Positions 1 through 45,968 of a stretch of DNA of 57,810 nucleotides are shown piece by piece. Made by a program: the position numbers and the translations under genes. Position 1 is the stretch's first letter. Each line of letters starts with the position of its first letter. Under the pieces are notes generated by a model. It did not search any database, was not told where the DNA came from, and saw nothing but the letters and a program-made list of their open reading frames with translations. Where the stretch lies: the NCBI GenBank assembly GCA_001657315.1, contig LYSV01000037.1, positions 1-57,810 on the forward strand, written 5' to 3'. The DNA is from Flammeovirgaceae bacterium BBD 1991-12 (GTDB lineage Bacteria; Bacteroidota; Bacteroidia; Cytophagales; Cyclobacteriaceae).

Positions 1-247
1 CTTTCAGCAGGTTGATCTTGTGCGTTGTGACCAGCGCACCAAGTGACAAAGGGTCATCTTTAATAAAGGTGACAGCCTCAATATAATCCTGCGGATCGGC
101 GTCCAGTGGAAAATCCATCCCCTTGATCTCGCAGTCGCCCAGTTCAATGAACCGTGCCCACTCCGGGAACACCTGCATGATCGAAGAACGGCCGGTGGTG
201 ACACCGATAAAATAGAGAGTAGGTTTCCGGGCTGCCTGGTATTTCAT
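1..247 (-). CDS. Shikimate dehydrogenase-like protein (5' part only, runs off window)
   Basis: Only the N-terminal 82 residues lie in the window; the gene continues past the left edge. The protein starts MKYQAARKPTLYFIGVTTG and includes a GRSSIMQVFPEW segment and ALVTTHK, which resemble the substrate-binding half of the AroE/shikimate dehydrogenase superfamily (a GVTTG-S opening and a conserved TxxHK lysine that acts in catalysis). It starts 2 nt after the stop of the upstream sugar kinase, so it is the fifth gene of the minus-strand sugar operon. In that setting it is more likely a sugar-catabolic or divergent paralogue than the aromatic biosynthesis enzyme. The family assignment is fairly sure; the substrate is not known. 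Confidence 0.7.
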   Translation of the reverse strand, partial: MKYQAARKPTLYFIGVTTGRSSIMQVFPEWARFIELGDCEIKGMDFPLDADPQDYIEAVTFIKDDPLSLGALVTTHKINLLK

Positions 248-249
248 TT

Positions 250-1776: not shown

Positions 1777-2452
1777 TGTATTCCAGTTTTTGTTCTGCCA
1801 GAAAATTAATGGCTTCGGCGGTAGTATCAAACACTACATCGGCCAGTGATAAGTGACTCGTATTCTGTTCGTTGCCATTGGCTACACCGATGGTAAACAT
1901 TCCTGCCGCACGGGCTGACAGGAGCCCTGACACTGAATCTTCGATAGCCGCACATTCATTGGATGCCACATTCAACCCTATGGCAGCTTTCAGGTACGGC
2001 TCGGGATCAGGCTTGAAGTTTTCTACATCATCTGCTGTGACTATAGTCTTGAAGAAGGGTTGAATACCGGTCTTTTTCAGAGACATAAGGGCGTCCTGAC
2101 CAGGACTGGAGGTAGCAACTCCCATTTTGGTGTCACGGATCTTTCGTAATCCTTCGGTTACACCGTCAAAGGCTTTTAACTTCTCATTGGCAAAGGCTCT
2201 GAAAAGTTCCCTTTTCTCATTCAGGAAAGTAGCAGAGCCTATATCCAGGCTGTTTTTCGTTACGATATGGCGACTCATATCCACATCTGAAATGCCGATC
2301 CACTGGTGATACCACTCATCATCATAGTACAACCGGTGCCGGGCCAGTGCCTGCTTCCATGCCTCAAGGTGCAGGGGTTCGGAATTGACCAGCGTACCGT
2401 CCATATCGAATACTATTCCTTTAAATGAGTTGTCTGCCTGTGATCCCATCAT
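1769..2452 (-). CDS. HAD-superfamily phosphatase / beta-phosphoglucomutase-like protein
   Basis: This 227-residue protein is a HAD subfamily IA enzyme with a helical cap. Motif I is FDMDGTLVNSEP (nucleophile Asp16, acid/base Asp18). Motif II is the Ser in GVATSSPG, motif III the Lys in NFKPDPEPYL, and motif IV is AAIEDSVSG. The family includes beta-phosphoglucomutase and 2-deoxyglucose-6-phosphatase-type sugar phosphatases. The start overlaps the stop of the dehydrogenase gene as ATGA (2449-2452), which indicates translational coupling. In this operon it probably dephosphorylates or isomerises a sugar phosphate made by the adjacent kinase. The sequence alone does not separate mutase from phosphatase activity. 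Confidence 0.88.
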   Translation of the reverse strand: MMGSQADNSFKGIVFDMDGTLVNSEPLHLEAWKQALARHRLYYDDEWYHQWIGISDVDMSRHIVTKNSLDIGSATFLNEKRELFRAFANEKLKAFDGVTEGLRKIRDTKMGVATSSPGQDALMSLKKTGIQPFFKTIVTADDVENFKPDPEPYLKAAIGLNVASNECAAIEDSVSGLLSARAAGMFTIGVANGNEQNTSHLSLADVVFDTTAEAINFLAEQKLEYNG

Positions 2453-3516
2453 TCAAAGAAAATTGTATGCTTCATACCTTCTCCCCGCAGTGCCATATCG
2501 AAGGCATCGTTGATCTGATCCAGCCTGTGACGATGCGTAATGAGTTTTCTCACATCGATCAACCCTTTTGAGATCATATTCAGTGTTTTTCGAAACTGGA
2601 TGATGCTTTGGCGTGTGGTGCCTGTCACCCATAGCTGGCGGTAATGGATAAGATTGGTATTGATCCCCGATAGATCTGCGTCTCCGGGTATCCCACCAAA
2701 ATAGATCACACTTCCATTAATTGCCGTTAGTTCCAGAGCGATGATCTGTGCCTGTGGGGATGCATTGGCCGTAATACAGACCTCTACACCTTTTCCGCGT
2801 GTAAGATCCATAACCTTCTCCTTCATCCCTGACGACTCCACTGTGGTCAGGCCACTGTTCAATTCCTTTGCTGCTTTCAGTCTTTTTTCATTCACATCAT
2901 TGACCAGCACCATACCAGCCCCTGCACTTTGCAACATCATAGCATGCATTAGCCCGATAGGTCCTGCTCCAAGAATAAGCACGGCATCCCCGGGCTGTAT
3001 GCGGGTCCTTTCAAACCCGTTCAATACACAGGAAAGCGGTTCGGCGAGGGAGGCTTCTTCATAGCTGAGGTCATCGGGGAGCACGCTGATGTTCCCCTGT
3101 CGAACAGCCTTGCCCGGTACCTTGAAGTACTGAGCAAATGCTCCGTTCATATTGATACCCAGCGCCATGTAGTCAGGACACAGGTGGGTATGTCCGCTGA
3201 CGCACTGGTCACAGATACCACACCCCATGTTAGGGGCTATTGCTACACGCATTCCTTCACTGTAATGCATGCCGTTAGCATCACTTATCTCAGCAACGTT
3301 CTTACCAATCGCTACGATCTCGCCGCTCATCTCATGTCCGGTGATTAATGGAGTGCTTTTTGTGATTCCTCGGTAACCGTTACGGTACATGCGCAGATCT
3401 GTCCCACAAATAGAGGCGTTGGCGGTTTTTACCAGTATTTCATTTGCGTTGATCGTTGGTGTTTCAATGTCCAACACCCTCAGGTCTTCTTTGTCATACA
3501 TAAGTGCGGCCTGCAT
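2449..3516 (-). CDS. Zinc-dependent medium-chain polyol/sugar alcohol dehydrogenase
   Basis: This 355-residue protein belongs to the MDR zinc alcohol dehydrogenase family, close to sorbitol, L-threonine and galactitol-phosphate dehydrogenases. Catalytic zinc ligands are visible as Cys37 (SICGTD), His61 and Glu62 (GHE). The structural zinc site is Cys99, Cys102, Cys105 and Cys113. The nucleotide-binding motif GAGPIG is at 183-188. The likely reaction is NAD(P)-dependent interconversion of a polyol and a ketose, which would supply the ketose for the adjacent kinase. It starts 3 nt after the oxidoreductase gene and overlaps the HAD gene by 4 nt, so all are cotranscribed. The exact substrate cannot be read from the sequence. 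Confidence 0.9.
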   Translation of the reverse strand: MQAALMYDKEDLRVLDIETPTINANEILVKTANASICGTDLRMYRNGYRGITKSTPLITGHEMSGEIVAIGKNVAEISDANGMHYSEGMRVAIAPNMGCGICDQCVSGHTHLCPDYMALGINMNGAFAQYFKVPGKAVRQGNISVLPDDLSYEEASLAEPLSCVLNGFERTRIQPGDAVLILGAGPIGLMHAMMLQSAGAGMVLVNDVNEKRLKAAKELNSGLTTVESSGMKEKVMDLTRGKGVEVCITANASPQAQIIALELTAINGSVIYFGGIPGDADLSGINTNLIHYRQLWVTGTTRQSIIQFRKTLNMISKGLIDVRKLITHRHRLDQINDAFDMALRGEGMKHTIFFE

Positions 3517-3519
3517 GGT

Positions 3520-4554
3520 CTATGGATTATGGGTTATTGAGATAGGTTTCCTCTCTGCAATGGACTGATTGCCTGCGTTTACTACCCGCACGGCCTCGAG
3601 ACCATCTCTGCCACTTACCTGTGGTGAGGTATCAAGCAAAATACAATCTATAAACGCCTGATCTTCTGCCTGGTAGGCTTCGGTGAAAAGCGTTCGCCAG
3701 CTTTTTTGGAAAGGTGTAACAACACCCTTTACCCCATTGACAACCACCATATCATATTCCTGAGTACGTCCGATGAAGATCACGCCTTCAGTTCCTACAA
3801 TCTCCACTCGGGCATCATATCCGTACTTCACGGAAACCGCCCCGTCGATATGTCCCTGACAGCCGTTATTGAAGCGGCAGGTCATGATCACATTGTCATA
3901 AAAATCAGGGAATTCCGTGGCAGCTTCAGGACACCTGAAGTTACCGGCTACAGCATACACCTCGCTGATCTCTGCACCTGCCATCCACCTTAATGTGTCA
4001 ATATCATGGCTATTTACCTCGGCCAGCGGACCGTTACTGGCCTGGATGTCGTACTGCCATGGCTGTGGAATACTCGGACCTCTGGTAAGTGACTTTACCA
4101 GCACTACATTTCCGATGTGTCCCTCGTCAACCGCCTGCCTGGCGGCCAGAAAGCTCTGGTCAAACCTACGCATAAAACCGATCTGCAGTTTAACGCCATG
4201 ATCTTCCACGGCTTGCAGCATATCCCGGCATTCAGTTTCAGTTATAGCCATTGGCTTTTCACATAGTATATGTACACCATTATGTGCGCAGTCCAGTACA
4301 ATATCCCGGTGGAACCAGGTGGGAGTCACCACCACTGCAGCATCCAGAGACTCATTTTCCAGCAGCTCCCGATGATTTTGATAGGTATTTACCTCAAATT
4401 GTTGGGCGGCTGCTGCGGCTTTCTCATCATCCGGCTCTACCATGGCCACCAGCTTTGCTTCCGGAATGGAGAAGGCCAGATTACCGGCATGTATGAGCCC
4501 GGCCCGGCCACCACCAATCACGGCTACCTTTATTTGGTTCTTTCCTTTTAACAT
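3520..4554 (-). CDS. Gfo/Idh/MocA-family oxidoreductase (inositol dehydrogenase-like)
   Basis: This 344-residue NAD(P)-dependent sugar or inositol dehydrogenase is the first gene of the minus-strand operon. The Rossmann motif VIGGGRAGLIHAG lies at residues 12-24, and the family hallmark CEKPMA, with the catalytic Lys100 of the EKP motif, at 98-103. A segment with HDIDTLRWMAGAE matches the conserved region of IolG-type proteins that contains the catalytic histidine. It probably oxidises a cyclitol or pyranose hydroxyl to a keto sugar, consistent with the dehydrogenase and kinase genes downstream. The 467-bp upstream intergenic region is shared with the divergent isomerase-SusC operon, so the two may respond to the same inducer. 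Confidence 0.9.
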   Translation of the reverse strand: MLKGKNQIKVAVIGGGRAGLIHAGNLAFSIPEAKLVAMVEPDDEKAAAAAQQFEVNTYQNHRELLENESLDAAVVVTPTWFHRDIVLDCAHNGVHILCEKPMAITETECRDMLQAVEDHGVKLQIGFMRRFDQSFLAARQAVDEGHIGNVVLVKSLTRGPSIPQPWQYDIQASNGPLAEVNSHDIDTLRWMAGAEISEVYAVAGNFRCPEAATEFPDFYDNVIMTCRFNNGCQGHIDGAVSVKYGYDARVEIVGTEGVIFIGRTQEYDMVVVNGVKGVVTPFQKSWRTLFTEAYQAEDQAFIDCILLDTSPQVSGRDGLEAVRVVNAGNQSIAERKPISITHNP

Positions 4555-5021
4555 CTGATAACAATAATAAATAAAAGAAAATTATAAATAAAAATAAACA
4601 AATGAAAATAAAAGAAAATTTGGTTAAATCAATAATCTGTGACGAGTGGTTTTAATATTTAACCAAACCATTTAGCTTATAATTATCTGATTTTCAGATA
4701 TTAATGTATTTATAATCTCCTGTGGGATTTGTATGTTTATAGGTATTCCATCTAGTTTCTATAAAGCTTTCTTATAGAAAGGAGGAAGGCGTGGAATAAA
4801 AATAGTGATCAAAAAATGCTGTTTATCTTTGTTAAAACATTGATGATTAGCGTAAAAAATGTAATAACTTATAAAAAGCGCTGCATCCCATTCAAAATGA
4901 TATTAAATGATATTAATCAATAATAAATACGTTTATTAAATATTATCAATTTTTATTGTGTGTTACCTGACTATGAACTAGTTTGGTGGTTGTATATGGA
5001 ATGTTGACCGATTGCTGTACT
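4555..5021. promoter_or_regulatory. Very AT-rich divergent control region of the glycan locus
   Basis: No gene is visible in this 467-bp stretch between divergent operons; it is far richer in A and T than its flanks. Features seen: CAATAATAAAT at 4562-4572 near the minus-strand gene and again at 4918-4928; two direct copies of ATAAAAGAAAATT around 4570 and 4606; an inverted repeat TTTCTATAA/TTATAGAAA (4757-4765 and 4772-4780); and a perfect-armed palindrome TAATAAA-TACG-TTTATTA at 4921-4938, about 85 bp before the isomerase start. These are candidate binding sites for a regulator of the utilisation locus; no regulator gene is present in this part of the window. No clear TAnnTTTG promoter was assigned. 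Confidence 0.55.
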
Positions 5022-5564
5022 ATGTTATCTGATAATTTAATCCAGGAGGCCCAGGAGCGAACAAGGAAAATGCTCAGGGCAGCCAATATCGAGCTTACGG
5101 AGGAGGAGGCTGCAGAGATCGAAGTATGTGACTACGAATTGGGGGATCACGCGCGCATTGGCACACAGATCGTTATTTATGAGAACAATGATCGCTATTG
5201 TGCCAAGGAACTTATCATGTTCCCTGGACAAATATGTCCTGAACACTATCATCCTCGTATCGGGGATTATCCGGGGAAACGGGAAACATTCAGATGCCGT
5301 TCCGGTGAGGTATACCTGTATGTACCCGGAGAGCCTACGAAAAATCCCCGGGCAGAAGTGCCTGCGGAACGAAGGGAACATTTCAAGGTATGGAGAGAGA
5401 TCATCCTGAAACCCGGTGACCAGTATACCATCATGGAAGGCACTCCTCACTGGTTCCAGGGTGGGCCGGAAGGTTGTATTGTTTCAGAATTCTCATCACC
5501 AAGCTTTGACGATAAGGATGTATTTACCGATCCGGATATTCAACGCACCTCCAATATTCAGTAA
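5022..5564 (+). CDS. D-lyxose isomerase family (cupin sugar isomerase)
   Basis: This 180-residue protein belongs to the D-lyxose isomerase family (cupin fold, Mn-dependent), which interconverts D-lyxose and D-xylulose and often D-mannose and D-fructose. The metal-binding set is visible: His75 and His77 in PEHYHPR, Glu88 in GKRETFRC, and His143 in EGTPHWFQ. The ATG at 5022 is chosen; the upstream in-frame TTG at 4983 adds 13 residues of no recognisable homology. It is the first gene of the plus-strand operon, 18 nt ahead of susC. D-xylulose would be the substrate expected for the FGGY kinase on the other strand. A mannose/fructose role is also possible given the GH38-like gene in the same operon. 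Confidence 0.85.
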   Translation: MLSDNLIQEAQERTRKMLRAANIELTEEEAAEIEVCDYELGDHARIGTQIVIYENNDRYCAKELIMFPGQICPEHYHPRIGDYPGKRETFRCRSGEVYLYVPGEPTKNPRAEVPAERREHFKVWREIILKPGDQYTIMEGTPHWFQGGPEGCIVSEFSSPSFDDKDVFTDPDIQRTSNIQ

Positions 5565-5582
5565 AGAACTAATCCAACAACT

Positions 5583-8500
5583 ATGAAGAAGCTTTTACTC
5601 ATTACTATTTTATTTAGTTGTATTCTCACACAGGCATGGACACAGCAGCGTGTTACAGGCACCGTTTCCGACGAGAACGGACAGCCTTTGCCAGGCGCCA
5701 ATGTTCTGATCAAGGGCAGCGCGGCCGGCACCGTCACAGACGTTGAGGGTAACTACAGTCTGGAGGTCACCGGTGGTGATGCTGAATTGATATTTTCCTT
5801 TGTGGGATATCTTGCCGAACAGGTAAGGGTAGGGGGGCAGTCAGTGATCAACATTACCATGTATCCGGATATTACCCAGTTGCAGGACGTTGTGGTTATT
5901 GGGTATGGTACACAGGAAAGAAAAGACCTGACCGGTTCGATCTCTTCGGTGCAGGAGCAACAGATCAAGGAGATTCCCACGACCAATTTTCAGCAGGCAT
6001 TACAAGGGCGTACACCCGGAGTGTTTGTTAATCAGAATGGTGGCGACCCCAGAGGTACCTATTCCATTCAGGTGAGAGGGGTTAACTCGCTGAACTTTGA
6101 CAGCAGCCCGTTGTTTGTGGTGGACGGTGTGCCGCTATTTGAAAGCTCTCTATACCATATTGATCCCGATAATATTGAGTCGATCGATGTATTAAAAGAT
6201 GCCTCAGCCTCTGCCATTTACGGAGCCCGGGCGGCCAATGGCGTGGTGATCATCACTACCAGGACAGGAAAACCAGGTCAGGCTACCATTAATTTTTCTG
6301 CAGACCTTGGGTGGCAGAGTATGGCCAATCCGCTGGAGTTGATGAACTCCGAAGAGTATGCCCAGGTATGGATCAATGCCCGTGAGATCAGAGGACAGGC
6401 GATACCTCCCGAATTTGATGATCCAGAGTTTTTCGAAGAAGACAATGACTATCAGGACCTGATCACACGCACGGCATTTTGGGAAAAATACACCCTCAGC
6501 GCCACGGTTGGCAGTGAAAATACTACTTATTCAATACTGGGTTCCTATACCAACAGGGAAGGAGTACTCATCAATACGGATTTTCAGCGGGCCAATCTGA
6601 ATGTAAAGGTGGAATCCGATATCAAGAACAAACTAAAAGTGGGGGCCAATATGGGACTCTCCGGCTATTGGGGAAACCTTAGCCAAAATAATCAGGTTGC
6701 ATTCAGCCGGGAAAATACATTTCTCGAGGCGCTTTTTGCCAAGCCATGGGTGCCGGTATTTGATGAAAACGGTAATCTGACCGGTCCGCCCAAAACTGCC
6801 GCCGGTAATGGTCCTTTCGGATTCTTTACACCAGCACCTATACATACCCAATTGCTGGTGGACCGTGAAGATTCTGAGTTCCGGTTTCTGGGGTCTGTTT
6901 TTGCCGAGTATGAAATTGTAGAGGGCCTGCGTTTCAAGTCCAGCCTTGGTGTGGATATCTTTAACCGGGAAGTCTACAGGTTTAATCCTTCCTATGATTT
7001 TGGCCGTGGGATCTTTACCAAAGTGCAGTCCAGCGTATCAAGAAGGTTTGCCAAAAACCACAACTGGGTAGCAGACCAGACACTCACCTATGACAGGCGA
7101 TTTGGAAAACACGGTTTGACAGCATTGGCAGGACTCTCCACCCAGGAATTTGAGAATGTGGGACTTAACGTGAGCCGGCGGGGAGCGACGGATAACATTT
7201 TCAATCAACCCAACAATAATCAACCGGATCTGAATGAGAATGCTGGTGGTGACGGTCCTATTACCACCCGTTTGTTTTCCTGGTTCGGTCGCTTGATCTA
7301 TGATTTCGACGATCGTTATCTCATCACTGCCACTGTAAGGAGAGACGGGTCTTCCCGTTTTGCCAGAAACAACCGTTTCGGTACTTTTCCTTCCGTTTCA
7401 GCTGGCTGGAAACTGAGCAATGAATCCTTTATGCCGGATCTGCCGGCGGTGGATGATATTAAACTGCGGGTCAGTTATGGCGAATCAGGGAATCAGAATT
7501 TTGCTTCCTTCTCTGATCTTGGAACTATCGGTGCGAATAATGTAGTGCTCAATAACCAGCTGATCACGGCATTTTCACTGCAATCGCTTAGCAATGCAGA
7601 CCTGCAATGGGAAACGAACAGGCAGTTTAACCTGGGGCTGGATCTTGGGCTGCTGAAGGGCAAGATCAACCTGACTGTTGATTATTTTCATAAAAGAAAT
7701 GATGATCTGCTGCTCGAGCAGCCTATTTCAGGTACCTCAGGGGTGAACGAGACCAACCTTCTGGTAAATTTCGGATCCATTGAAAACCGGGGGATCGAGC
7801 TGGGGATAGATTCCGAGGTACAGTTTGGCAAATTCACGTGGAATTCCGGCTTCACCATTTCCAGGTACAGAAATGAGGTCATCGATTTTGGCCGGAATGA
7901 GAATGGTGAACCCATTCCGTTTTTCGGTGCTACGCTTCCTGAGATCAATCTACCTACCAATATATCCGTGGAAGGTCATCCTATTGGTGCCTTTTACGGA
8001 GTGCTTTTTGACGGAGTCTACCAGACCGGAGAAACTATCAATGTGAATAATCCGGGAGTAAGCGCAGGTGATTTCCGGTTTGTTGACCTGAACGATGACG
8101 GCACCATCAACACGGAGGACCGCACCTTCATTGGCGACCCCAATCCTGATTTTTACGGTGGTTGGTCGAATTCCCTGTCATGGAAAGGGCTGACCCTGTC
8201 CATGTTCTGGACCTTCTCCTATGGCAACGATATTTATAATGTATATAAAAACTGGGCATTGAGCGGCTTTCCAGGCTTTAACAGTCTGCGTGAATACAAT
8301 GATCACTGGACCCCGGATAATCCGAGTCAGCGGTATCCGAAACCATGGTCGCCTATTCACTTTAGCTACAACACCACCCCTTCCGACCGTTTTGTGGAAG
8401 ATGGTTCGTATCTCAGGCTCAAAAACCTTTCACTGGCCTACAACATTCCCAAAAATCTGACAGACCGAATAGGAGTTACCGGCCTGCGTCTGACGCTGAC

Positions 8501-8654
8501 CGGCAGTAACCTGATCACGATCACCGATTACTCCGGTCTGGATCCTGAAAACAACAGTGGACTGGGTTTTGGTAACGCACGGTCGCTGGGTGTGGACTAC
8601 ATCCCATATCCTTTTACCAAGAACTACAACGTAAAACTTGATCTCACCTTTTAA
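5583..8654 (+). CDS. SusC/RagA-family TonB-linked outer membrane glycan transporter
   Basis: This 1023-residue outer membrane receptor imports oligosaccharides with energy from TonB. It has a signal peptide (MKKLLLITILFSCILTQAWT), a carboxypeptidase-regulatory-like domain from about 22 to 105 (VTGTVSDENGQPLPGANV), the SusC-specific QLQDVVVIGYG linker, a plug domain (DGVPLFESSLYHIDPDNIESIDVLKDASASAIYGARAANGV pattern, about 180-225), and a long beta-barrel ending in an aromatic residue (KLDLTF). It is followed 13 nt later by its SusD partner. The pair is the hallmark of a Bacteroidota polysaccharide utilisation locus. Substrate cannot be inferred from the barrel, but the neighbouring sulfatases point to a sulfated glycan. 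Confidence 0.97.
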   Translation: MKKLLLITILFSCILTQAWTQQRVTGTVSDENGQPLPGANVLIKGSAAGTVTDVEGNYSLEVTGGDAELIFSFVGYLAEQVRVGGQSVINITMYPDITQLQDVVVIGYGTQERKDLTGSISSVQEQQIKEIPTTNFQQALQGRTPGVFVNQNGGDPRGTYSIQVRGVNSLNFDSSPLFVVDGVPLFESSLYHIDPDNIESIDVLKDASASAIYGARAANGVVIITTRTGKPGQATINFSADLGWQSMANPLELMNSEEYAQVWINAREIRGQAIPPEFDDPEFFEEDNDYQDLITRTAFWEKYTLSATVGSENTTYSILGSYTNREGVLINTDFQRANLNVKVESDIKNKLKVGANMGLSGYWGNLSQNNQVAFSRENTFLEALFAKPWVPVFDENGNLTGPPKTAAGNGPFGFFTPAPIHTQLLVDREDSEFRFLGSVFAEYEIVEGLRFKSSLGVDIFNREVYRFNPSYDFGRGIFTKVQSSVSRRFAKNHNWVADQTLTYDRRFGKHGLTALAGLSTQEFENVGLNVSRRGATDNIFNQPNNNQPDLNENAGGDGPITTRLFSWFGRLIYDFDDRYLITATVRRDGSSRFARNNRFGTFPSVSAGWKLSNESFMPDLPAVDDIKLRVSYGESGNQNFASFSDLGTIGANNVVLNNQLITAFSLQSLSNADLQWETNRQFNLGLDLGLLKGKINLTVDYFHKRNDDLLLEQPISGTSGVNETNLLVNFGSIENRGIELGIDSEVQFGKFTWNSGFTISRYRNEVIDFGRNENGEPIPFFGATLPEINLPTNISVEGHPIGAFYGVLFDGVYQTGETINVNNPGVSAGDFRFVDLNDDGTINTEDRTFIGDPNPDFYGGWSNSLSWKGLTLSMFWTFSYGNDIYNVYKNWALSGFPGFNSLREYNDHWTPDNPSQRYPKPWSPIHFSYNTTPSDRFVEDGSYLRLKNLSLAYNIPKNLTDRIGVTGLRLTLTGSNLITITDYSGLDPENNSGLGFGNARSLGVDYIPYPFTKNYNVKLDLTF

Positions 8655-8667
8655 AGCAACAGACACG

Positions 8668-10188
8668 ATGAAAAGAATAAACCATATACTCAGCCTGATC
8701 ATCCTGATAGGATTTGGATGTGATGATTTTCTGGATACGGAGCTTGAAGGAGTAGCTACACAGGACAACGTATTTAACTCTGTAGAGGGAGCGATCAATA
8801 TGTCCACTGGCTTGTATGAAAATATGAGGGCATTTTACAATAATACCTACTACAATCTGTATGAGATCCCCATGGATGATGCCTTTACCCGCAGAGATGA
8901 CCGTCCTTTGGAAAACTTTGCCTTTGCACCTAGCATTGGTTCCGTCCGTAGTTTGTGGAACAGCCACTATCAGGGCATAGGGCGGGCCAATTTTATCATT
9001 ACCAAAATTGATGATGTGTCCTTCAGGGAAGATCAGGAAGAGCTGAAAAATATGATCATGGGGCAGGCCCGTTTCTTCAGGGCATTTTATTACTTTAATC
9101 TTGTACGGTCCTTTGGAAATGTACCTATTTATACGGGTATAGTAGAAACACCTGATGGTGCATTTAACCAAAGAGAGTCGATAGTCACCGTTTATGAGGA
9201 GCAGATAGAACCCGACCTGCTGGCAGCGATAGACCTGCTGCCGGATAAAACGGCGCTGGGTAACACACAGGGTTTTGAAGCCGGACGGGTGACACGGGAA
9301 GTGGCACAAACACTGCTGGCGTGGGTGTACCTTACGGAAGAAAAATGGGCGCTTTCCCATCAGATGGCAGCCAACGTGATTGGGGCGTATTCCCTTACAC
9401 CCGTTTATGCTGATCTTTTTGGCGGAAGAGAACTACTGAATGACGAGTCGATGCTGGAGGTACAGAATATATTGCTGGATGCCGGTACAATATTGCCCAG
9501 ATTAGGCGCTCCCGGGCCGGTACTTCCTTCTCCTTCGGGCATATTTGCAGAGTTGATCGCCACGGATGATGACATCACCTGGCTTCCGGGTAAACCAGCC
9601 TCAGGAAATGGGTTGGTTCAGGTATTTGATCCGGGTGACCTCAGACGAGATGTATCGGTGTCTAAATACGGTCTTACTGAAAGTGACCTCGCGCCCGGAC
9701 AGCCTTCAGAGTTTTATAGCTTCAAGTTTTGGAATGATGACCCGGTGAACGCGGGTAGGGCAGGCGTCAACTTCCCTGTGATCCGCTATGCGGATGTGCT
9801 ACTGATCTATGCAGAAGCAAAGAATGAGGATATGGCGTTGGATGCAGATGCACTGGAGAAATTGAATATGATACGGAGGCGGGCCTTAGGAGTGGATATT
9901 AACACTCCTGACCCTGCTGTGGATCTGACCCCTGCTACACAGGAAGAATTCCGATTGGCGGTGTGGAAGGAAAGAAGGGCAGAATTTTGCTTTGAAGGCA
10001 AACGCTTCTTTGATGTGAACCGCCGGGGAACCATGATCGAGACTATGGCGCTACAGGGTGTGACAGTACCGGCAGGGGCTGTAGTCCCCAACCCTGCAAG
10101 TCCGTCAGGAAAAAGGCAGTTTCTCATGCCCATACCGGAGCGGGAACTGCAGATCAATCCTGACCTTGGACAAAATGACGGATATTAA
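8668..10188 (+). CDS. SusD/RagB-family surface glycan-binding lipoprotein
   Basis: This 506-residue lipoprotein caps the SusC barrel and captures oligosaccharides. After the signal peptide MKRINHILSLIILIGFGC the cysteine starts CDDFLDTELEGVATQDNVF, the usual SusD opening. TPR-like helices follow, with QARFFRAFYYFNLVRSFG (about 136-153) and AWVYLTEEKW. The C-terminal part carries IRYADVLLIYAEAKNE and a WKERRAEFCFEGKRFFDVNR segment, both SusD hallmarks. The ATG at 8668 is chosen because the reading frame upstream overlaps the end of susC and lacks a signal sequence. The lipobox is loose (GFGC). Confidence 0.96.
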   Translation: MKRINHILSLIILIGFGCDDFLDTELEGVATQDNVFNSVEGAINMSTGLYENMRAFYNNTYYNLYEIPMDDAFTRRDDRPLENFAFAPSIGSVRSLWNSHYQGIGRANFIITKIDDVSFREDQEELKNMIMGQARFFRAFYYFNLVRSFGNVPIYTGIVETPDGAFNQRESIVTVYEEQIEPDLLAAIDLLPDKTALGNTQGFEAGRVTREVAQTLLAWVYLTEEKWALSHQMAANVIGAYSLTPVYADLFGGRELLNDESMLEVQNILLDAGTILPRLGAPGPVLPSPSGIFAELIATDDDITWLPGKPASGNGLVQVFDPGDLRRDVSVSKYGLTESDLAPGQPSEFYSFKFWNDDPVNAGRAGVNFPVIRYADVLLIYAEAKNEDMALDADALEKLNMIRRRALGVDINTPDPAVDLTPATQEEFRLAVWKERRAEFCFEGKRFFDVNRRGTMIETMALQGVTVPAGAVVPNPASPSGKRQFLMPIPERELQINPDLGQNDGY

Positions 10189-10279
10189 TACGGTATGTGA
10201 TAAGCTAGTCAGAAGTGATTAATTTCATGGTCAATGAAAAGTTACTTGTGGTCATACCTGGAGTGGGATGACATTTATC

Positions 10280-10382
10280 CAACTCACCCCAATTCCACCG
10301 GAGGTGGAATATCCCTTCCCTTCCCGATAGCTATCGGGATAGAGAGGGGAATGTTCAGACCTGTCTGAACGAGGGTGAGTTG
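10280..10382. repeat. Inverted-repeat-bounded element with three nested hairpins
   Basis: A 103-bp unit is bounded by the perfect inverted repeat CAACTCACCC (10280-10289) and GGGTGAGTTG (10373-10382). Inside are three separate palindromes: ATTCCACC-GGA-GGTGGAAT (10292-10310), the perfect 18-mer TCCCGATAGCTATCGGGA (10322-10339), and GTTCAGAC-CT-GTCTGAAC (10353-10370). As RNA it would fold into a closed stem carrying three arms. It resembles REP/BIME or MITE-like dispersed elements and may reduce read-through from susD into the sulfatase gene. Function is inferred. Confidence 0.8.
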
Positions 10383-10488
10383 ATATGCCGGAACTTGCAA
10401 ACTGAACATTGACAATCATTTCTTGCAAAAATAGGTGGTGACCACCTTTAAAAAATGCAAGAGTTGGAATTGCAAATAAAAAAATATG

Positions 10489-10634
10489 GTCGCTGCAGCG
10501 AGGCTGGCGATGCTTTGCGTGTGGGTTACGAAGCTGTCTCCCTCTCGTCTGTATTAAACGTACTCTATCCTCATGGTTCGAGTAGGGGATCGCTTCACAC
10601 CCGGCTGAAGCCAACCCACGAAGTTCGCGATGAC
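10489..10634. repeat. Degenerate inverted pair of a GTCATTGCGA-type dispersed repeat
   Basis: The left arm begins GTCGCTGCAGCGAGGCTGG and contains GTGGGTTACGAAGC; the right arm, read on the minus strand, begins GTCATCGCGAACTTCG and contains GTGGGTTGGCTTC and GAAGCGATCCC. The two face each other around a centre near 10560. This is the pattern of the widespread bacterial intergenic repeat that reads roughly GTCATTGCGAGG...CGAAGCAATCTC. No coding capacity is seen. Divergence between the arms suggests it is old. Confidence 0.5.
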
Positions 10635-10704
10635 GATAAAAACATATGTATGTCATAGGTAGTGGCCACATTAAAAAAATGTAGATATCCTTAATGACAA
10701 GGTG

Positions 10705-12233
10705 ATGAAACGATCTTATGAGTACGGTTTAGCCATCCTGGTGATGGCTTTCTTTGTTTCCTGCCAGAAGGGAGCGGGTGATAGTCCGGATGGGGAATCC
10801 GACACGAGAGAAGACGATCCCCGTCCCAATATAGTGCTCATTCTTGCGGATGACATGGGGTACGGGGATATCAGCTTTTATGGCGCACTAAAATCACTAC
10901 CCCCCGCATTGATGAACTGGCTCATAACGGACTGGCATTTTTGGATGCCCATACGGCAGGAGCGGTTTGCCAGCCCAGCCGGTACAGTCTGCTCACCGGC
11001 ACCTATTTCTGGCGCAGTGAAAAGGCACGGACGGCCTTTGAAAAACGGGACCTGATGGGGCATATGCCCGAAATGCTGGAAAGGGGCCGGCAAACGCTGG
11101 CTACACTGCTCAGTAATGGAGGCTATCAAACCGCCTATCTTGGTAAATGGCATCTGGGGCTGTCCTGGCAAACGAAAAACGACGAGGAGCCTATGGATGA
11201 CGGCACAAATGTGGATTACACTCAACCCTTTTCCGGTGGTCCTTTGGACCACGGATTTGATTACTACCATGGTATTGCCGCCTCACTCGATATGCCTCCC
11301 TATGTTTTCCTGAAAAATGACAGGGCTGTGAAAGTGCCTGATGTATACTGGGATCGCTTCAGGACATTCCGTCAGCCAGGGTTGAAGACTGCAGACTGGC
11401 AGGATGAAGCTTTTAATACCATCGTCACTGAGCAGGCCACTAAGTTGATCGGAGAATATGGAAAAAACCTTGATCCCTGGTTTATCTATGTGGCGCTGGC
11501 GGCTCCGCATACTCCTCACAGGCCTTCTGAACGGGTGAAGGGAAAAAGCGAGGCGGGAGCCCGTGGGGACATGGTGCTGGAGGTAGACTGGACAGTAGGT
11601 GAAGTGATGGAAGCCCTGAAAAGATCAGGTCAATACAATAATACCCTGCTTATCATTACCAGCGATAACGGAGCGATCACTAATGGGATGCCCAAGTGGG
11701 CCGGCAACCCGGCGTGGTACGAGGTACAGGACTATGGCCACGCGGCCAACGGATATTTCAGGGGGCAGAAGGGAGATGTTTACGAAGGAGGCCACAGGGT
11801 GCCAATGGTGATGCACTGGCCGGACAAGATAAGGAAACCAGGAACGATAGACCATATCGTTTCCCTTACAGACCTCTTTTCCACATTCGCTACTCTTGTG
11901 GATCAGCCGGTCAGGGACGCGACGGACAGCTATGATCTTTCTGCTTACTTTGTTCATGACACTGTAAAGTCTCCGGTACGAAAAAGCGTTACGCACTATG
12001 CCTATCATTATGACCTTTATGCTTTTCGTACGGATACGCTCAAGTACGTCAATGGGCTGGGCTCCGGTGGTTTTATGGGGGCCTATATGGAAGAAGACAG
12101 CGTGCGATCAGGTGTTCAGCTTTATAATATGGCCATGGACCCCACCGAGCAAACCAACATAGCTCAGGGTAATCCTGCGCTGCTTGGTAAGCTGGATAGT
12201 GCGCTGAAGGCCGATCTTGTAAAAGTAAAATGA
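10705..12233 (+). pseudogene. Arylsulfatase (S1 family) split by a single-base frameshift
   Basis: The two halves form one sulfatase lipoprotein. The first frame has a lipoprotein signal ending AFFVSC and NIVLILADDMGYGDISFYGAL with the metal-binding Asp pair. The second frame resumes with TTPRIDELAHNGLAFLDAHT and the formylglycine motif Cys-Gln-Pro-Ser-Arg in AVCQPSRYSLLTG, then GKWHLG and later SDNGAI. The reading frame changes at the A-run 10890-10893: adding one A gives an uninterrupted ALKITTPRIDEL. As sequenced, translation from 10705 stops at 11055. It would remove sulfate from a glycan in the periplasm. The start is ATG 10705, after a possible GTG at 10702. It could be a real inactivating mutation or a homopolymer sequencing error; everything else in the gene looks intact. 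Confidence 0.88.
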
Positions 12234-12244
12234 ATTGAACCGAT

Positions 12245-14752
12245 ATGATGAAGCTTAAAACGGCATTGCTGCTGATAACATCCACTGGCTTTTTCGCTTC
12301 TGCCCGGGGACAACAGGAAGCGGAACCGCTTGCCCCTGTGTATATTCTCAACTACGATCATCTGGGAGTGATCCTTTGGGGGGAGGAAAGTATTAACTGG
12401 GCGCTTGACGTGGAATTTGACCGGCTTAAAAAGTACGATGACTATACGATAGGCTGGGATCATGAAGCCTATACCTACGATTACCTCGCAGCCAACAGCC
12501 CTGATGTACTGGAACGCATGCAAAAAGGAATAAAGGATCATCCGGGGCGGCTCTCTGTGGGCACCAGCACCTACGGGCAGCCATTGTCACGTTTTATCAA
12601 TGAGGAGTCCAACATCCGTCAGCTTACCTTAGGTAGGTCAACGGTGGAGCAGTATTTTGGCAAGGCGCCTGATGTTTACCTGATGGGGGAGCATGCCTTC
12701 CATAGCCAGATGCCTCAACTGCTGAAGGGAGCAGGTTATACCGGGGCCATTATGCGCACACACTTCATGATGTTCGGTTACAATCCCACCTTCAAGGCAC
12801 CTGTGGCGCGGTGGGAAGGGATGGACGGCTCTATGATCACTACGATACCCACCTATCCCGGACAGGAGCATTTTGCTGTGCCGGCTTCTCCGTATCCCTA
12901 CGGAGCGGTGACCGTTGATGGTGTGATCATGACCGATTTTGTACGAAGGAAGAGCGCTACGCTACAACATTTCCGGGAGCAGTTTGGGCACGATATCCGA
13001 CCACTGGTGGCTTCCCGTGCAGATGATCCACGTCAGCCTGATGAGATAATTGAGGTCCACCAGGGAGATCCGAACTACATCTGGACAGTAGCCGACAGCA
13101 TTTTTAACTACCTGCCTGCACCCCGTAAGACGTTTTTTACCGCACCGAAGGATTTTGCCGAGCGGATGCCATGGGGGTACTGTGGCAACTGGATATGGAA
13201 TAAGAGCCGTCTGGCCGAGGTAAATGTGTTGACGGCGGAGCGTCTTGCGGCTATTCACCATGCGGTAGGTGGGAATACCCGTGAGAAGGAAATTACAAAA
13301 GCATGGAAAAATCTGCTGGTGGCCCAGCATCACGACATACAGATCGTAGGTATAGAAAAGGCAGGCAGAGTATTTCTGGATGCCAGCCTGGCACAGTCGC
13401 AGGCTATTATCGATGAAGCCATGACGGGGATAGGAGCCCGGATGACGGGGCCGAAGGATGGGTGGCTCACCTTTAACCCATTGAACTGGCCAAGGAAGGA
13501 TGTGGTGAGGCTGGGAGATGGCCGCGAGATGATCATGGAGGCAGAAGGGCTGGGTTTCAGGGTTACAGAGCCTACGGAACAGGTGATACCGGACCAGTTT
13601 CAGTGGGACGAGGAAAAGCGGGAGTTGGTCACTCCTTTTTACAATATCAGGCTGGCCATGGAAGGAGGTTTTTTACAAATGGAGGACCGTAAGTCCGGCC
13701 GGAAGGTAATAACAACAGGCCGTCGAAGTGGGGTGCTTGAGGCATACATTAACGGCAAGTCAGAAAGCAGTGTGGGTAAGACGCAGGTCCATCAAAAAAA
13801 CGTTGGTATGGTCGTGGTGGAAAAAGGGAATATCGGGTCCATACCCTACGAGCTGTCATGGACGTTCTATGCCTTTAGTCCGCGGGTTGATTACGCCTTG
13901 AAGATCAGCGTAAAAGATGAAAAGATCGGCAAAATGACCGATGACCCGGCAGACCCGTATTCATCCTTTGAGCATGATCAAAAGCTGCGATTGAAATTCT
14001 ACCCTGAGTTGTATGATCAGGTGGTGGGTGTCGAGGATCATCCTTTTATAGTCACGGAGACAAAGCGTGAGGTTTTGCAGGGGAATTACTGGAATGCCAT
14101 TACCGATGGCAGCATGGGACTGGCTTACTTTAATAAAGGTACGATGTGTTCCATCAGGGAGCAGGACGGCAGCTTTTCCGTACCGCTGGCATTTTCCACG
14201 GCTTTTATCTGGAATACCGTGCCCATGAAAGGTGATTATACCTATGAATTGGCACTGTACCCCTTTTCCGGCGACTGGCGGGCAGCAGAACTTCATAAAA
14301 AAGCACTGGAGTTCAACTATCCGGTCATAAGTGCTAAAGTGAATGGTAATAAAAAGGGCAGACTGGGCAGTGAATGGTCCCCCCTTAAAATCACAGGTGA
14401 TGGTGCTATCCTGTCCGCCCTGTACACGGTCAATGATGAGACCTTTGCGCGCTTTTATGAATATAGAGGAGGAAACACTGCCTTGACCGGTACCTGGCTG
14501 GACAGGCCTATAGAATTTACAGAAGTAGATTTCAATCATAATTTTCAGGCAAGGCAGGGGGGAAGCGGTGTTCTAAGTCCGTGGCAGATCAGCACCTTCA
14601 GGATTGGCGAAAGGATAGAGGGAAAAGACTACAGCAGGATCGATATTCCGCTCACAATTGACTTTAAATATGAGCATGACTGGACGGAGTCAAAGTGGCT
14701 GAAACCCAATGGTATTACTGAGGAGGAGTTGAAAAGGAGTGTTGTGAAATGA
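12245..14752 (+). CDS. GH38-like (alpha-mannosidase superfamily) secreted protein with atypical active site
   Basis: This 835-residue protein has a signal peptide (MMKLKTALLLITSTGFFASA) and the overall layout of family GH38: an N-terminal alpha/beta domain, a helical part with LLVAQHHD (zinc-ligand His region, 361-364), and C-terminal beta domains. Segments such as GTSTYGQPLSRF and EESNIRQL (105-126) align with the conserved GH38 block that carries the -ES-RQ- pattern. The usual HxD zinc motif is replaced by Asn36-Tyr-Asp38, and where GH38 enzymes have WxPDxFG with the catalytic Asp this protein has MGEHAFHSQMPQLL (147-160). It starts 11 nt after the sulfatase and is probably cotranscribed. 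It may cleave a different sugar or have lost metal-dependent activity. Confidence 0.75.
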   Translation: MMKLKTALLLITSTGFFASARGQQEAEPLAPVYILNYDHLGVILWGEESINWALDVEFDRLKKYDDYTIGWDHEAYTYDYLAANSPDVLERMQKGIKDHPGRLSVGTSTYGQPLSRFINEESNIRQLTLGRSTVEQYFGKAPDVYLMGEHAFHSQMPQLLKGAGYTGAIMRTHFMMFGYNPTFKAPVARWEGMDGSMITTIPTYPGQEHFAVPASPYPYGAVTVDGVIMTDFVRRKSATLQHFREQFGHDIRPLVASRADDPRQPDEIIEVHQGDPNYIWTVADSIFNYLPAPRKTFFTAPKDFAERMPWGYCGNWIWNKSRLAEVNVLTAERLAAIHHAVGGNTREKEITKAWKNLLVAQHHDIQIVGIEKAGRVFLDASLAQSQAIIDEAMTGIGARMTGPKDGWLTFNPLNWPRKDVVRLGDGREMIMEAEGLGFRVTEPTEQVIPDQFQWDEEKRELVTPFYNIRLAMEGGFLQMEDRKSGRKVITTGRRSGVLEAYINGKSESSVGKTQVHQKNVGMVVVEKGNIGSIPYELSWTFYAFSPRVDYALKISVKDEKIGKMTDDPADPYSSFEHDQKLRLKFYPELYDQVVGVEDHPFIVTETKREVLQGNYWNAITDGSMGLAYFNKGTMCSIREQDGSFSVPLAFSTAFIWNTVPMKGDYTYELALYPFSGDWRAAELHKKALEFNYPVISAKVNGNKKGRLGSEWSPLKITGDGAILSALYTVNDETFARFYEYRGGNTALTGTWLDRPIEFTEVDFNHNFQARQGGSGVLSPWQISTFRIGERIEGKDYSRIDIPLTIDFKYEHDWTESKWLKPNGITEEELKRSVVK

Positions 14753-42467: not shown

Positions 42468-42854
42468 ATGGGATTTATCAGAAATACGGCCGTTGTTTTT
42501 TTGGTGCTCAATATTCTTGGCAGCTCACTGATGGTTCCCTTGATCTACCTGGATTTTGAACTCCGCAGGGACTATATAGCTGAGGTGCTGTGTATCAATC
42601 GTGACGAGCCCATTACCGTTTGTGGCGGTAAATGTTACCTCGATCTTAGATTGGAAAAGGCAACCGAACACCAGGAATCAGAATCTGCCACCCATGAGAG
42701 ACAGCCTGAACTGTCCTTTTTCAGCCAGGAAGTAGCACTTTTGGAATTTGAAGGCTCTCCGAATAGCGGAGACTCCAGCCCACCGTCCATGGATGATCCC
42801 TGCTGTACCCGTTCCTTTATTGAAGATGTTTTCCATCCTCCCCGGTCCTGTTAG
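42468..42854 (+). CDS. Small membrane-anchored protein with Cys motif CGGKCYL
   Basis: This 128-residue protein has an N-terminal membrane/signal helix (NTAVVFLVLNILGSSLMVPLIYL) and the motif VLCINRDEPITVCGGKCYLD (about 43-62). The C-x3-C pair with GGKCYL recurs in small Bacteroidota proteins near metal-uptake genes, as far as recalled. A further Cys pair lies near the C-terminus (DPCCTRSF). It starts the block that continues with a His-rich lipoprotein and MbnP/MbnH, so a copper-related role is inferred. The ATG at 42468 is preferred over a TTG at 42459. Confidence 0.75.
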   Translation: MGFIRNTAVVFLVLNILGSSLMVPLIYLDFELRRDYIAEVLCINRDEPITVCGGKCYLDLRLEKATEHQESESATHERQPELSFFSQEVALLEFEGSPNSGDSSPPSMDDPCCTRSFIEDVFHPPRSC

Positions 42855-42917: not shown

Positions 42918-43385
42918 ATGAAAAAATACATGTATCTGCTGGTCATTGGTGTGTTTGCCTGCCAATCCAAAACAGCAGACGAGAATCCTTTATTAAAAGA
43001 AGTAATCACGATCCATGATCTGGCCATGGATGAGATGGGGCCGGTAATGAGCCTCAAAATACAACTCGGGGAATCGATCGATTCAACAAGACTGGAAGAG
43101 TATGAAAGTGTGATGAGCGAACTGGACCAGTCCCATGAAGCTATGATGGTTTGGATGCGGAGTTTTTCCAGACAATTTCCCAATGCTGTTCTGAAAGGTG
43201 GCGGATCACATCACAACGGTCATGGTCATACAGGGCACGGGAATCATGATAAGCACTCCCGTTCACCGGAAGAGGAGAAGCGACTGCTGGAAGCTGAAAA
43301 GACAAAGGTGACAGCGCTGAGAAAAAAGATGGCTATGGCCATTGAAAGTGCAAACCAACTTTTAAAACAGAAGGAGGAGAAATGA
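42918..43385 (+). CDS. His-rich lipoprotein of the copper block
   Basis: This 155-residue lipoprotein has the signal MKKYMYLLVIGVFAC. The helical body ends in a His-rich stretch, GSHHNGHGHTGHGNHDKHS (about 98-116), then a basic coiled-coil-like tail (EEEKRLLEAEKTKVTALRKK). The His run could bind copper or zinc. Its stop overlaps the ATG of mbnP (43382-43385), so the two are translationally coupled. Related proteins are sometimes labelled viral A-type inclusion protein-like; this is only a resemblance. Confidence 0.8.
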   Translation: MKKYMYLLVIGVFACQSKTADENPLLKEVITIHDLAMDEMGPVMSLKIQLGESIDSTRLEEYESVMSELDQSHEAMMVWMRSFSRQFPNAVLKGGGSHHNGHGHTGHGNHDKHSRSPEEEKRLLEAEKTKVTALRKKMAMAIESANQLLKQKEEK

Positions 43386-44239
43386 AAACGTGCGTAATAG
43401 TAATACTCATGGCAGGTCTCATGCTCGGTTGTGATCAGCAGAAAGATGTCCGGCTCAGGTTTTCCGCAGAGGTGGATGGTACGCCTCTGACCTGCGACAG
43501 ATGGTATGCCGGATATGATTCGTCAGGGGATGCCAGCATACAGATCAAGGATTTCAGATTCTTTGTTTCCGATGTTCGATTGATCAATGACAGGAATGAA
43601 GAAGTACCGGTCTTGCTGGAGCAGGACAGCATATGGCAGTTTCAGGATATTGCCTTGCTTGATTTTGAAGACGGCACGGGAGAGTGCGAGGAGAAAGGAA
43701 CGGCCCAAATCAACTCAATGATCAAGGGTAGAGTAGAGGGTAGCCGTTTTAAAGGTATTGTCTTCAAAATGGGACTTCCTTTTGAATGGAACCATGTCGA
43801 CAATGTGGCTGTGCCTTCTCCGTTGAACATAGGGGCCATGTTCTGGAACTGGCAGTATGGCTATAAATTCGCCCGCTTCGATCTGGTAACGGATCGTGAA
43901 GATGATCGAAAGTTTTGGTTCATTCACCTGGGCAGTACCGGATGCACGTCCGGTGCAGCAGGTATGGCACCGGACTCAGCCTGCCTGAAGACCAACATTC
44001 CTGAGATACGGATCGATAATTTTGACATTGAGAATGATGTTATTGTGGCAGACCTGGGCTCCCTGATCAGAGGTCTGAAGATCGGTACCTGTATGTCCGG
44101 GCCGGCAAATCCTTTTTGTGAAGAACTGTTTCCAGGGTTCGGGCTTTCACTAGCGTCAGGAACATGTAAAGAGGACTGCGAAGATCAGCAGCTTTTTCGC
44201 AGGCGATCTTCCAAAAACGTGGCATATGCCGCTGAGTAG
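43382..44239 (+). CDS. mbnP: MbnP-family copper-associated lipoprotein
   Basis: This 285-residue lipoprotein (signal MKTCVIVILMAGLMLGC) matches the MbnP family. The body has IKDFRFFVSDVRLI, then GRVEGSRFKGIVFKMGLPFEWNH and the conserved aromatic block MFWNWQYGYKFARFD, in which Trp residues are expected to be oxidised. STGCTSGAAG and CMSGPANPFC carry the conserved cysteines. In known MbnP/MbnH pairs the dihaem enzyme converts a Trp of MbnP to kynurenine, giving a copper site. The MbnH-like gene follows with an overlap, which supports the pairing. No methanobactin peptide or MbnB/C gene is in the window. Confidence 0.85.
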   Translation: MKTCVIVILMAGLMLGCDQQKDVRLRFSAEVDGTPLTCDRWYAGYDSSGDASIQIKDFRFFVSDVRLINDRNEEVPVLLEQDSIWQFQDIALLDFEDGTGECEEKGTAQINSMIKGRVEGSRFKGIVFKMGLPFEWNHVDNVAVPSPLNIGAMFWNWQYGYKFARFDLVTDREDDRKFWFIHLGSTGCTSGAAGMAPDSACLKTNIPEIRIDNFDIENDVIVADLGSLIRGLKIGTCMSGPANPFCEELFPGFGLSLASGTCKEDCEDQQLFRRRSSKNVAYAAE

Positions 44240-45911
44240 GATGTCCAGGGGCCTGGTATGGCTTGCATTTGCGGGTCTGGCAACAGCAGGTTGGGTGCAT
44301 ATGGACATTGTGCCCTTCCACTTTGCACATATGCCTGCACATGGGATCTTCTTTGCATTTCTTGGATTGGCGCAGTTGGCTTACCTACCGGTACTGCTTC
44401 GCTATCCTGAAAATCGGAGCACCATGGGGTGGGGGATGATGATGACCGGCGGAGTAGTTGTTCTCTGGGGCCTCACTCAGTTGGGTATTACACCGTTCAC
44501 CCGCTCGGGGGAGCCTGTAGATACTCCAACAGTTATCAGCAAGATCGCTGAGCTCACGGGATTCACAGCTTTTGTCATTCTACATTTTCAGCAAAAGCTG
44601 CCGAACCTGCTGTATCGTATCGGGCAAACGCTGGTAGGTGTGCTTATCGTACAGTCTGTAGGTTTTGCGGCAGAAGCAGTTACCGGAGGAGCGTCTCAGT
44701 CACACCATCCGGGTGTGGCTCACGGGGTACCGGGAGAAGGAGAGGAAGGAGGACATACTCATGGTTCGTACGCCAATGATTATACCTCGGATTATGACTG
44801 GGGCGATGTATTTGGAAGTATTAAGAGCTACCTGACATCAAGGACGAAAACAGGCTATACCTGGGATCTCCCTCCTGGCTTCCCGGAACCCCGGGTGCCG
44901 GAGGACAACCCGATCACAGAAGACAAGGTCGTTCTGGGAAGGCATTTGTTTTACGACAAGAAGCTTTCCGGAAACGGTACGTTCAGTTGTGGGAGCTGTC
45001 ATCATCAGGATAAAGCGTTTGCAGACGGTCTGAAATTACCCAGAGGGTCTACGGGAATGGTCCATCCCAGAAACTCACTTACCCTGACCAATTCAGCCTA
45101 CAGCTCTACCCTTACATGGGCCAACCCGTCCCTGGGGACTATTGAAAAACAGGTGTTGGTTCCCATGTTTGGCGAGTTTCCTGTGGAGCTGGGAATTACC
45201 GGAAACGAAGAGAAAGTCCTGCACAGGTTCAAAGAAGATACCCGGTATCAGCAGTTGTTTGCCGAGGCTTTTCCGGATGAGCAGAACCCCTTTCACTTTG
45301 TGAATTTTGCGAAAGCCCTGGCTTCTTTCACCCGTACAATGATATCCGGTAATTCTCCCTATGACAGGTTCATTTATCAGCGGGATACCTCAGCATTGAC
45401 CGATCAGGAACAAAGGGGGTTGAAAACGTTCCTTTCTGAAGAGCTGGAGTGCCACCATTGCCATGGAGGGTTTAATTTTACTTTGTCGACTGTGCATGAT
45501 AAAACCGTATTTGTAGAAAAACCATTTCACAATACAGGATTGTACAACCTCGATGATAAGGGTTCCTATCCGGCGGACAATACCGGCATGTTTGAATTTA
45601 CCGGCAGGGAGAAAGATATGGGCAGGTTCCGAGCTCCCACGTTACGTAACATTGCTCTGACAGCGCCCTACATGCATGATGGAAGTATGGAAACGCTGGA
45701 GGAGGTCATCGACTTTTACGCGAGGGGCGGGCGAAAGATCGGGCAGGGGAAATTGGCAGGTGATGGAAAAGTTAACCCTTTCAAAAGCGGTTTTGTTGCC
45801 GGTTTCAGAATCACCGACCAGGAAAAGGAAGATCTGATCGCCTTTTTGCACGCACTCACTGATAGGGAATTCGTTGGAGATCCGAGGTTTTCCGATCCTT
45901 TTGAGCATTAA
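44226..45911 (+). CDS. mbnH: MbnH-type dihaem cytochrome c peroxidase with extra membrane domain
   Basis: This 561-residue protein has an unusual N-terminal 150-residue membrane region (helices near 10-28, 38-58, 68-88, 108-122 and 132-152), a His-rich linker (SHHPGVAHGVPGEGEEGGHTHG, 159-180), and then a dihaem peroxidase of the MauG/MbnH type. Haem sites are Cys255-Gly-Ser-Cys258-His259 and Cys409-His-His-Cys412-His413. PTLRNIALTAPYMHDGSMETL is the conserved C-terminal block. Expected role: oxidise Trp in MbnP. The start at 44226 overlaps mbnP by 14 nt; ATG 44241 is possible. The membrane part resembles small copper-associated membrane proteins seen elsewhere; the fusion looks unusual for MbnH. 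Confidence 0.85.
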   Translation: MPLSRMSRGLVWLAFAGLATAGWVHMDIVPFHFAHMPAHGIFFAFLGLAQLAYLPVLLRYPENRSTMGWGMMMTGGVVVLWGLTQLGITPFTRSGEPVDTPTVISKIAELTGFTAFVILHFQQKLPNLLYRIGQTLVGVLIVQSVGFAAEAVTGGASQSHHPGVAHGVPGEGEEGGHTHGSYANDYTSDYDWGDVFGSIKSYLTSRTKTGYTWDLPPGFPEPRVPEDNPITEDKVVLGRHLFYDKKLSGNGTFSCGSCHHQDKAFADGLKLPRGSTGMVHPRNSLTLTNSAYSSTLTWANPSLGTIEKQVLVPMFGEFPVELGITGNEEKVLHRFKEDTRYQQLFAEAFPDEQNPFHFVNFAKALASFTRTMISGNSPYDRFIYQRDTSALTDQEQRGLKTFLSEELECHHCHGGFNFTLSTVHDKTVFVEKPFHNTGLYNLDDKGSYPADNTGMFEFTGREKDMGRFRAPTLRNIALTAPYMHDGSMETLEEVIDFYARGGRKIGQGKLAGDGKVNPFKSGFVAGFRITDQEKEDLIAFLHALTDREFVGDPRFSDPFEH

Positions 45912-45934: not shown

Positions 45935-45968
45935 AAGGCTGCCTCGGAAAGGGGCAGCCTTATTTTTT
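45935..45968 (+). terminator. Intrinsic terminator after the copper block
   Basis: AAGGCTGCC (45935-45943) pairs with GGCAGCCTT (45953-45961) around a 9-nt loop and is followed by ATTTTTT. It closes the transcription unit that ends with the dihaem enzyme at 45911. Confidence 0.9.

Follow-up and report, generated by a model that had tools for sequence, protein, structure and literature searches.

A rare MbnH with an N-terminal five-helix membrane domain and a His-rich linker, encoded beside MbnP in a Flammeovirgaceae bacterium

The 57,810-nucleotide stretch of contig LYSV01000037.1 from Flammeovirgaceae bacterium BBD 1991-12 (hereafter the window) raises the question of why a dihaem enzyme of the MbnH family should begin with a multi-helix membrane domain, and what that domain might do for the copper-binding partner MbnP encoded next to it. 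The original prediction placed an MbnP/MbnH pair at 43382..45911, with both haem motifs in MbnH, and this was confirmed by family matches above cut-off in adjacent or overlapping genes. MbnP (43382..44239, forward strand, as are the features of this locus below) matched TIGR04052 with 239.6 bits (cut-off 140) and PF20243 with 117.2 bits (cut-off 27). In the alignment with the solved MbnP-type protein 7l6g (E = 1.6e-26), residues H138, H182, W155 and W157 fell on identical residues. Apart from a lipobox (LMLGC) and probable lipoprotein status, both assigned by eye, MbnP showed no other notable difference from 7l6g or the TIGR04052 family. The mbnH gene (44226..45911, 561 residues) is a single open frame starting at ATG 44226, with which it overlaps mbnP by 14 nucleotides, or at ATG 44241, with which the two genes abut. 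MbnH matched TIGR04039 with 530.3 bits (cut-off 362.85), residues 224-559 covering model positions 1-336 of 336, and the closest solved sequence was 6e1c (410 bits). The dihaem enzyme domain (44850..45908) carries the haem c motifs CGSCH (44988..45002; CxxCH at residue 255) and CHHCH (45450..45464; CxxCH at residue 409). The whole catalytic domain, both haem motifs and the pairing with mbnP are common to the window protein and to 6e1c and the TIGR04039 family. Judged by these matches, the segment 43382-45911 holds a true MbnP/MbnH pair in which MbnH is complete.

The N-terminus is where this MbnH differs. Four aligned plasmid MbnH proteins have a short leader, whereas the window protein has a five-helix membrane domain (44241..44675) followed by a His-rich linker with five His (residues 151-208; 44676..44849). 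In the full-length AlphaFold model, with a mean predicted local distance difference test score (pLDDT) of 61.9, helices spanned residues 3-35, 37-59, 64-86, 100-124 and 127-152. The domain-only AlphaFold model (four sequences) reached a mean pLDDT of 76.7, with helices 1-4 mostly above 80 and helix 5 at about 63-73. Both models contained five helices within residues 1-150, which, with the five linker His, bears out the predicted ~150 residues of membrane helices and His-rich linker ahead of the enzyme. The possibility that the membrane part is a separate gene was rejected; there is no internal stop, and other genomes carry the same fusion. As the frame is open throughout, the fused mbnH is one gene. 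Downstream of the fifth helix the frame offers just two start codons, GTG 44715 and GTG 44895, and by eye no signal sequence follows either.

The premise that known MbnH proteins are soluble held roughly, in that most other MbnH frames begin with a short leader or a single hydrophobic stretch, either a signal peptide or an anchor. The exception was L107 (loci from other records carry L numbers), where the MbnH frame 5509-7347 has an N-terminal extension resembling, by eye, a cytochrome c domain (CANCH). We also observed tandem MbnH-like genes with a 4-nucleotide overlap in L074 (5875-8294). For plasmids L066, L068 and L069, PLSDB calls MbnH a "methanobactin export MATE transporter MbnM", likely a naming error. 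The titles "Bifidobacterium breve" (L104) and "Bordetella parapertussis" (L142), borne by contigs of metagenome-assembled genomes (MAGs), look doubtful, because their MbnH group with MAG rows titled as Acidobacteria and Burkholderiales.

Homologues of the membrane domain were detected in other MbnH fusions (phmmer E values of 7e-21, 1.5e-19 and 9.6e-7 among 11,333 frames), and the fusion is therefore not a chance event. The same order of parts was found in L070, an Allomuricauda MAG, and in L072 and L118 from Chloroflexota, that is, in three of 79 MbnH loci drawn from the best 80 matches, a scan in which a fusion could be missed where a contig end truncates the frame. In the phylum of L072, 16 of 301 genomes matched the domain profile and three of these carry MbnH fusions (L153, L154 and L072 again); among 346 genomes of its class, 12 had MbnH above the cut-off, and two of these carry the membrane domain (L180 and L072 again). 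L175, whose His-rich start lies at a contig edge, and L186, which is also cut, were left out of the fusion counts. All six other fusions passed the TIGR04039 cut-off, with 506-519 bits. In a neighbour look-up that did not include L180, mbnP adjoined the fused mbnH in L070, L118, L169 (the L153 gene) and L170 (the L154 gene), while in L072 one cytochrome gene lay between the two. Searching for the N-terminal domain alone and as fusions, as the original prediction had proposed, thus returned the fusion in six other genomes, one Allomuricauda MAG and five Chloroflexota, and the domain in other proteins as well. The fusion is not common, and the fused MbnH is a real, rare and recurrent protein, a new variant of the known MbnP/MbnH pair.

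It is very improbable that the locus arose as an artefact, through an assembly error joining two genes or a contaminating contig. Such an origin would fit the absence of MbnH above the cut-off from the other 389 sampled genomes of the order, three congeners included, and an assembly of 282 contigs with 2.31% contamination. Nevertheless, the same fusion in six other genomes refutes an artefact for the fusion itself. Contamination is unlikely as well, since the composition of the window (45.8% guanine plus cytosine, tetranucleotide correlation 0.886-0.969) fits that of four further 20-kb segments of the assembly; moreover, accessory genes of Bacteroidota type lie upstream of the pair.

What, then, does the added module do? 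Our preferred reading, to which we assign a probability of about 0.5, is that the fused protein is an inner-membrane MbnH whose module binds copper and helps to load MbnP. The fusion turns up in a handful of unrelated bacteria, in some of which it also includes a copper-carrier domain, and this suggests that it handles copper at the membrane. In L072 and L118, a PCuAC chaperone domain (PF04314; 78.6 and 77.4 bits, cut-off 29.4) lies after the linker and before MbnH, and in L071 a single hydrophobic stretch is followed by PCuAC (44.7 bits) and MbnH. Relatives of the membrane domain in L157 and L158, from the phylum of L072, are fused N-terminally to multicopper oxidases; further relatives occur in other proteins. 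Plasmid matches to a further relative, L156, were weak (E 1e-5 to 4e-3), and metal-transport genes lay at most 6 kb away in five of the seven records. The agreement of the MbnP residues with 7l6g and the mbnP genes at or near the fused mbnH of five relatives also favour this reading. Two absences weigh against the preferred reading: the window protein, unlike L072 and L118, gave no PF04314 match at E up to 1, and no copper transporter was found among the 19 window proteins scanned. A third point is that some MbnH from Anaerolineae possess no more than a single hydrophobic stretch, which would suit a bare-anchor role.

Several neighbourhoods of these relatives deserve mention, the first two of them also as support for the copper reading. 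Directly upstream of mbnP and the PCuAC-MbnH fusion in L071, a single polypeptide combines CopC, CopD and PCuAC (2050-4437). In L118, a gene upstream of mbnP (4271-4861) encodes a DeoR-type regulator that ends in a NosL domain. L162 holds a short membrane-domain relative that has a His-rich tail and shares the His motif of the fusions (1492-1758 and 2447-3184 are the coordinates for the relative and its neighbour), and about 700 bases away a probable cation-efflux gene, similar by eye to the cation diffusion facilitator family. In L070, the fused MbnH adjoins genes for a cbb3-type oxidase (COX1, FixO) and a ScdA/hemerythrin gene (21-5004).

The window's membrane domain alone matched no Pfam or NCBIfam family at E 0.01. 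The sole membrane-family match in the whole protein was DUF998 (14.7 bits, under the cut-off of 30), and DUF5368 matched one of 12 membrane-domain relatives. A His motif, H25, H32, H35 and H39, surrounds the turn between transmembrane helices 1 and 2 (TM1-TM2; 44298..44342). Among the seven MbnH fusions, H25 and H39 are kept in all, H32 and H35 in six each, and by eye a His cluster lies 3' of the membrane domain in 7/7. H35 and H39 were considered as a signature exclusive to MbnH fusions, as they appeared in 0/5 others in the 12-row alignment, but this was rejected. In a wider recount over 14 non-MbnH frames, which omits two L168 copies of L155 frames, His occupied the H35 position in one (L162) and the H39 position in two (L162 and a short L155 frame); the two residues are therefore enriched in MbnH fusions, not exclusive to them, and this enrichment counts for the copper reading.

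These conserved residues bear on an alternative in which the membrane domain merely anchors MbnH beside the lipoprotein MbnP, the fusion having arisen in Chloroflexota and later moved to Bacteroidota. Chloroflexota have no outer membrane, and an unanchored MbnH would be lost from such cells. In place of the five helices, related Anaerolineae MbnH (e.g. L177 and L179) carry a single hydrophobic stretch at the N-terminus, maybe an anchor or a signal peptide, and several Bacteroidota MbnH-like proteins show a lipobox by eye. The bacterial peroxidase YhjA (9qdt), of a different family with a similar dihaem peroxidase core, is likewise membrane-anchored. However, one helix would be enough for an anchor and the domain has five, a pattern of H, P, G, Q and E residues is kept in 11 or 12 of the 12 aligned relatives, H35 and H39 are enriched as described, and the domain's other partners include multicopper oxidases. 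We consider a pure anchor possible but rather unlikely. Still less probable is a redox module through which the quinone pool and the MbnH haems would exchange electrons. Dihaem peroxidases require an electron donor, conserved His residues within or close to the first two helices could be haem b ligands, and cbb3-type oxidase genes lie beside L070; against this, the membrane domain matched no cytochrome b family in Pfam or NCBIfam, and its plasmid relatives adjoin metal transporters in five of seven records. The original suggestion that the fusion tethers Trp oxidation to copper or electron transfer at the membrane is thus favoured in its copper half, by PCuAC in two homologues, the multicopper oxidase fusions and the metal-transport neighbours, whereas the electron-transfer half drew no evidence.

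On the preferred copper-loading reading, the fused protein would insert via its first helix, and five helices would put the C-terminus outside. The dihaem MbnH would then act on the nearby lipoprotein MbnP from the outer side of the cytoplasmic membrane, converting a conserved Trp to kynurenine. Kynurenine and two His would form the copper site. The membrane domain with its His cluster near the TM1-TM2 turn, together with the His-rich linker, may bind copper and hand it to the newly modified MbnP, a copper-passing step that the added PCuAC domain might serve in the two Chloroflexota relatives.

Comparable arrangements are described from methanotrophs. MopE-SACCP and CorA-CorB likewise pair a kynurenine-containing copper protein with a neighbouring dihaem enzyme (PMC3912023, PMC3621798), and in CorA and MopE copper is held by kynurenine and two His (PMC3912023). 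The latter paper (PMC3912023) suggests the neighbouring dihaem protein as the maker of kynurenine, takes an M. alcaliphilum knock-out as suggesting that copper binding is possible without the dihaem protein, and places CorB mostly in the periplasm and SACCP on the cell surface. The MbnP sequence is stated to be without marked similarity to MopE or CorA (PMC3621798). The same source reported in 2013 that MbnP/MbnH pairs are conserved far beyond methanobactin producers and described their role as unclear. The methanobactin-independent setting claimed for the window locus therefore has documented precedent and is not new; a Methylocystis MbnB query found no match in the window's genome, in a search run without a positive control.

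Where did the pair come from? MbnH above the cut-off was found in one of 390 genomes of the order and the membrane-domain profile matched one of 296 genomes of the phylum, in both cases the window's own, while 173 of the 390, again with its own genome included, had a MauG/MbnH-like match at 1e-70. The window MbnH and L070 grouped together in both trees (support 98-99). In the first tree, from which a length filter excluded L118, this pair was nearest to gammaproteobacterial MbnH (support 90) and not to the Chloroflexota fusions. The second tree, computed with L118 and without two long outgroup rows, set all fusions and their Chloroflexota kin on one side of a branch with a support of 65, which is not significant. 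Both trees require four changes of the fused state, and the sequences place the window/L070 MbnH firmly on neither the gammaproteobacterial nor the Chloroflexota side. Given the two single occurrences and the grouping with L070, the mbnP-mbnH pair was probably acquired horizontally.

The operon does not appear foreign throughout, as its two upstream open reading frames (ORFs) have relatives across the order. ORF131 (42468..42854; ATG 42468 preferred over TTG 42459 of the frame list) is a small membrane protein with a CxGKCYL motif, an accessory gene of Bacteroidota MbnP/MauG-type loci. It had matches in 86 of 148 genomes of the order, its own included, and lay at most 12 kb from a MauG/MbnH-like gene in 13 of the 42 genomes with both kinds of match among the matches listed (0.32 expected). 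ORF155 (42918..43385), a probable lipoprotein by eye with the His-rich stretch HHNGHGHTGHGNHDKH, overlaps mbnP by 4 nucleotides and had matches in 28 of the 148 genomes, its own included. A Pfam scan assigned no family to either. Six Bacteroidota loci, L199-L204, were picked because ORF131 and a MauG/MbnH-like gene lie close together. They likewise hold an MbnH-like enzyme, with ORF131 labelled in 5/6, and PF20243 was confirmed in all five tested (L199, L200, L201, L202 and L204); in L202 an ORF155 homologue lies beside the MbnP/MbnH-like pair. The three MbnH-like proteins tested from this set scored 227-286 bits, under the TIGR04039 cut-off, and the membrane domain had no match among the frames of the six loci. 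A terminator-like hairpin 3' of mbnH (45935..45961; 11 pairs, then a T run) is suggestive only, as the region has seven such sites against a mean of 4.2 in shuffles. Elsewhere in the window, 5583-14752 is probably a glycan-use locus, in which a sulfatase and a GH57/GH38-like hydrolase come after a SusC/SusD-type pair.

By placing PCuAC and a metal-associated membrane domain on one polypeptide with MbnH, the fusions link the MbnP/MbnH pair to copper delivery at the membrane. Tentatively, at somewhat less than even odds, we propose that an unnamed five-helix copper module joined to MbnH lets one protein both make the kynurenine copper site of MbnP and deliver the copper. If true, this would be a membrane copper-loading station for a metal site made post-translationally. 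The most interesting point is that MbnH and multicopper oxidases have this unnamed metal-associated membrane domain in common: a domain without a Pfam or NCBIfam model that has been combined with at least two kinds of copper-related enzyme.
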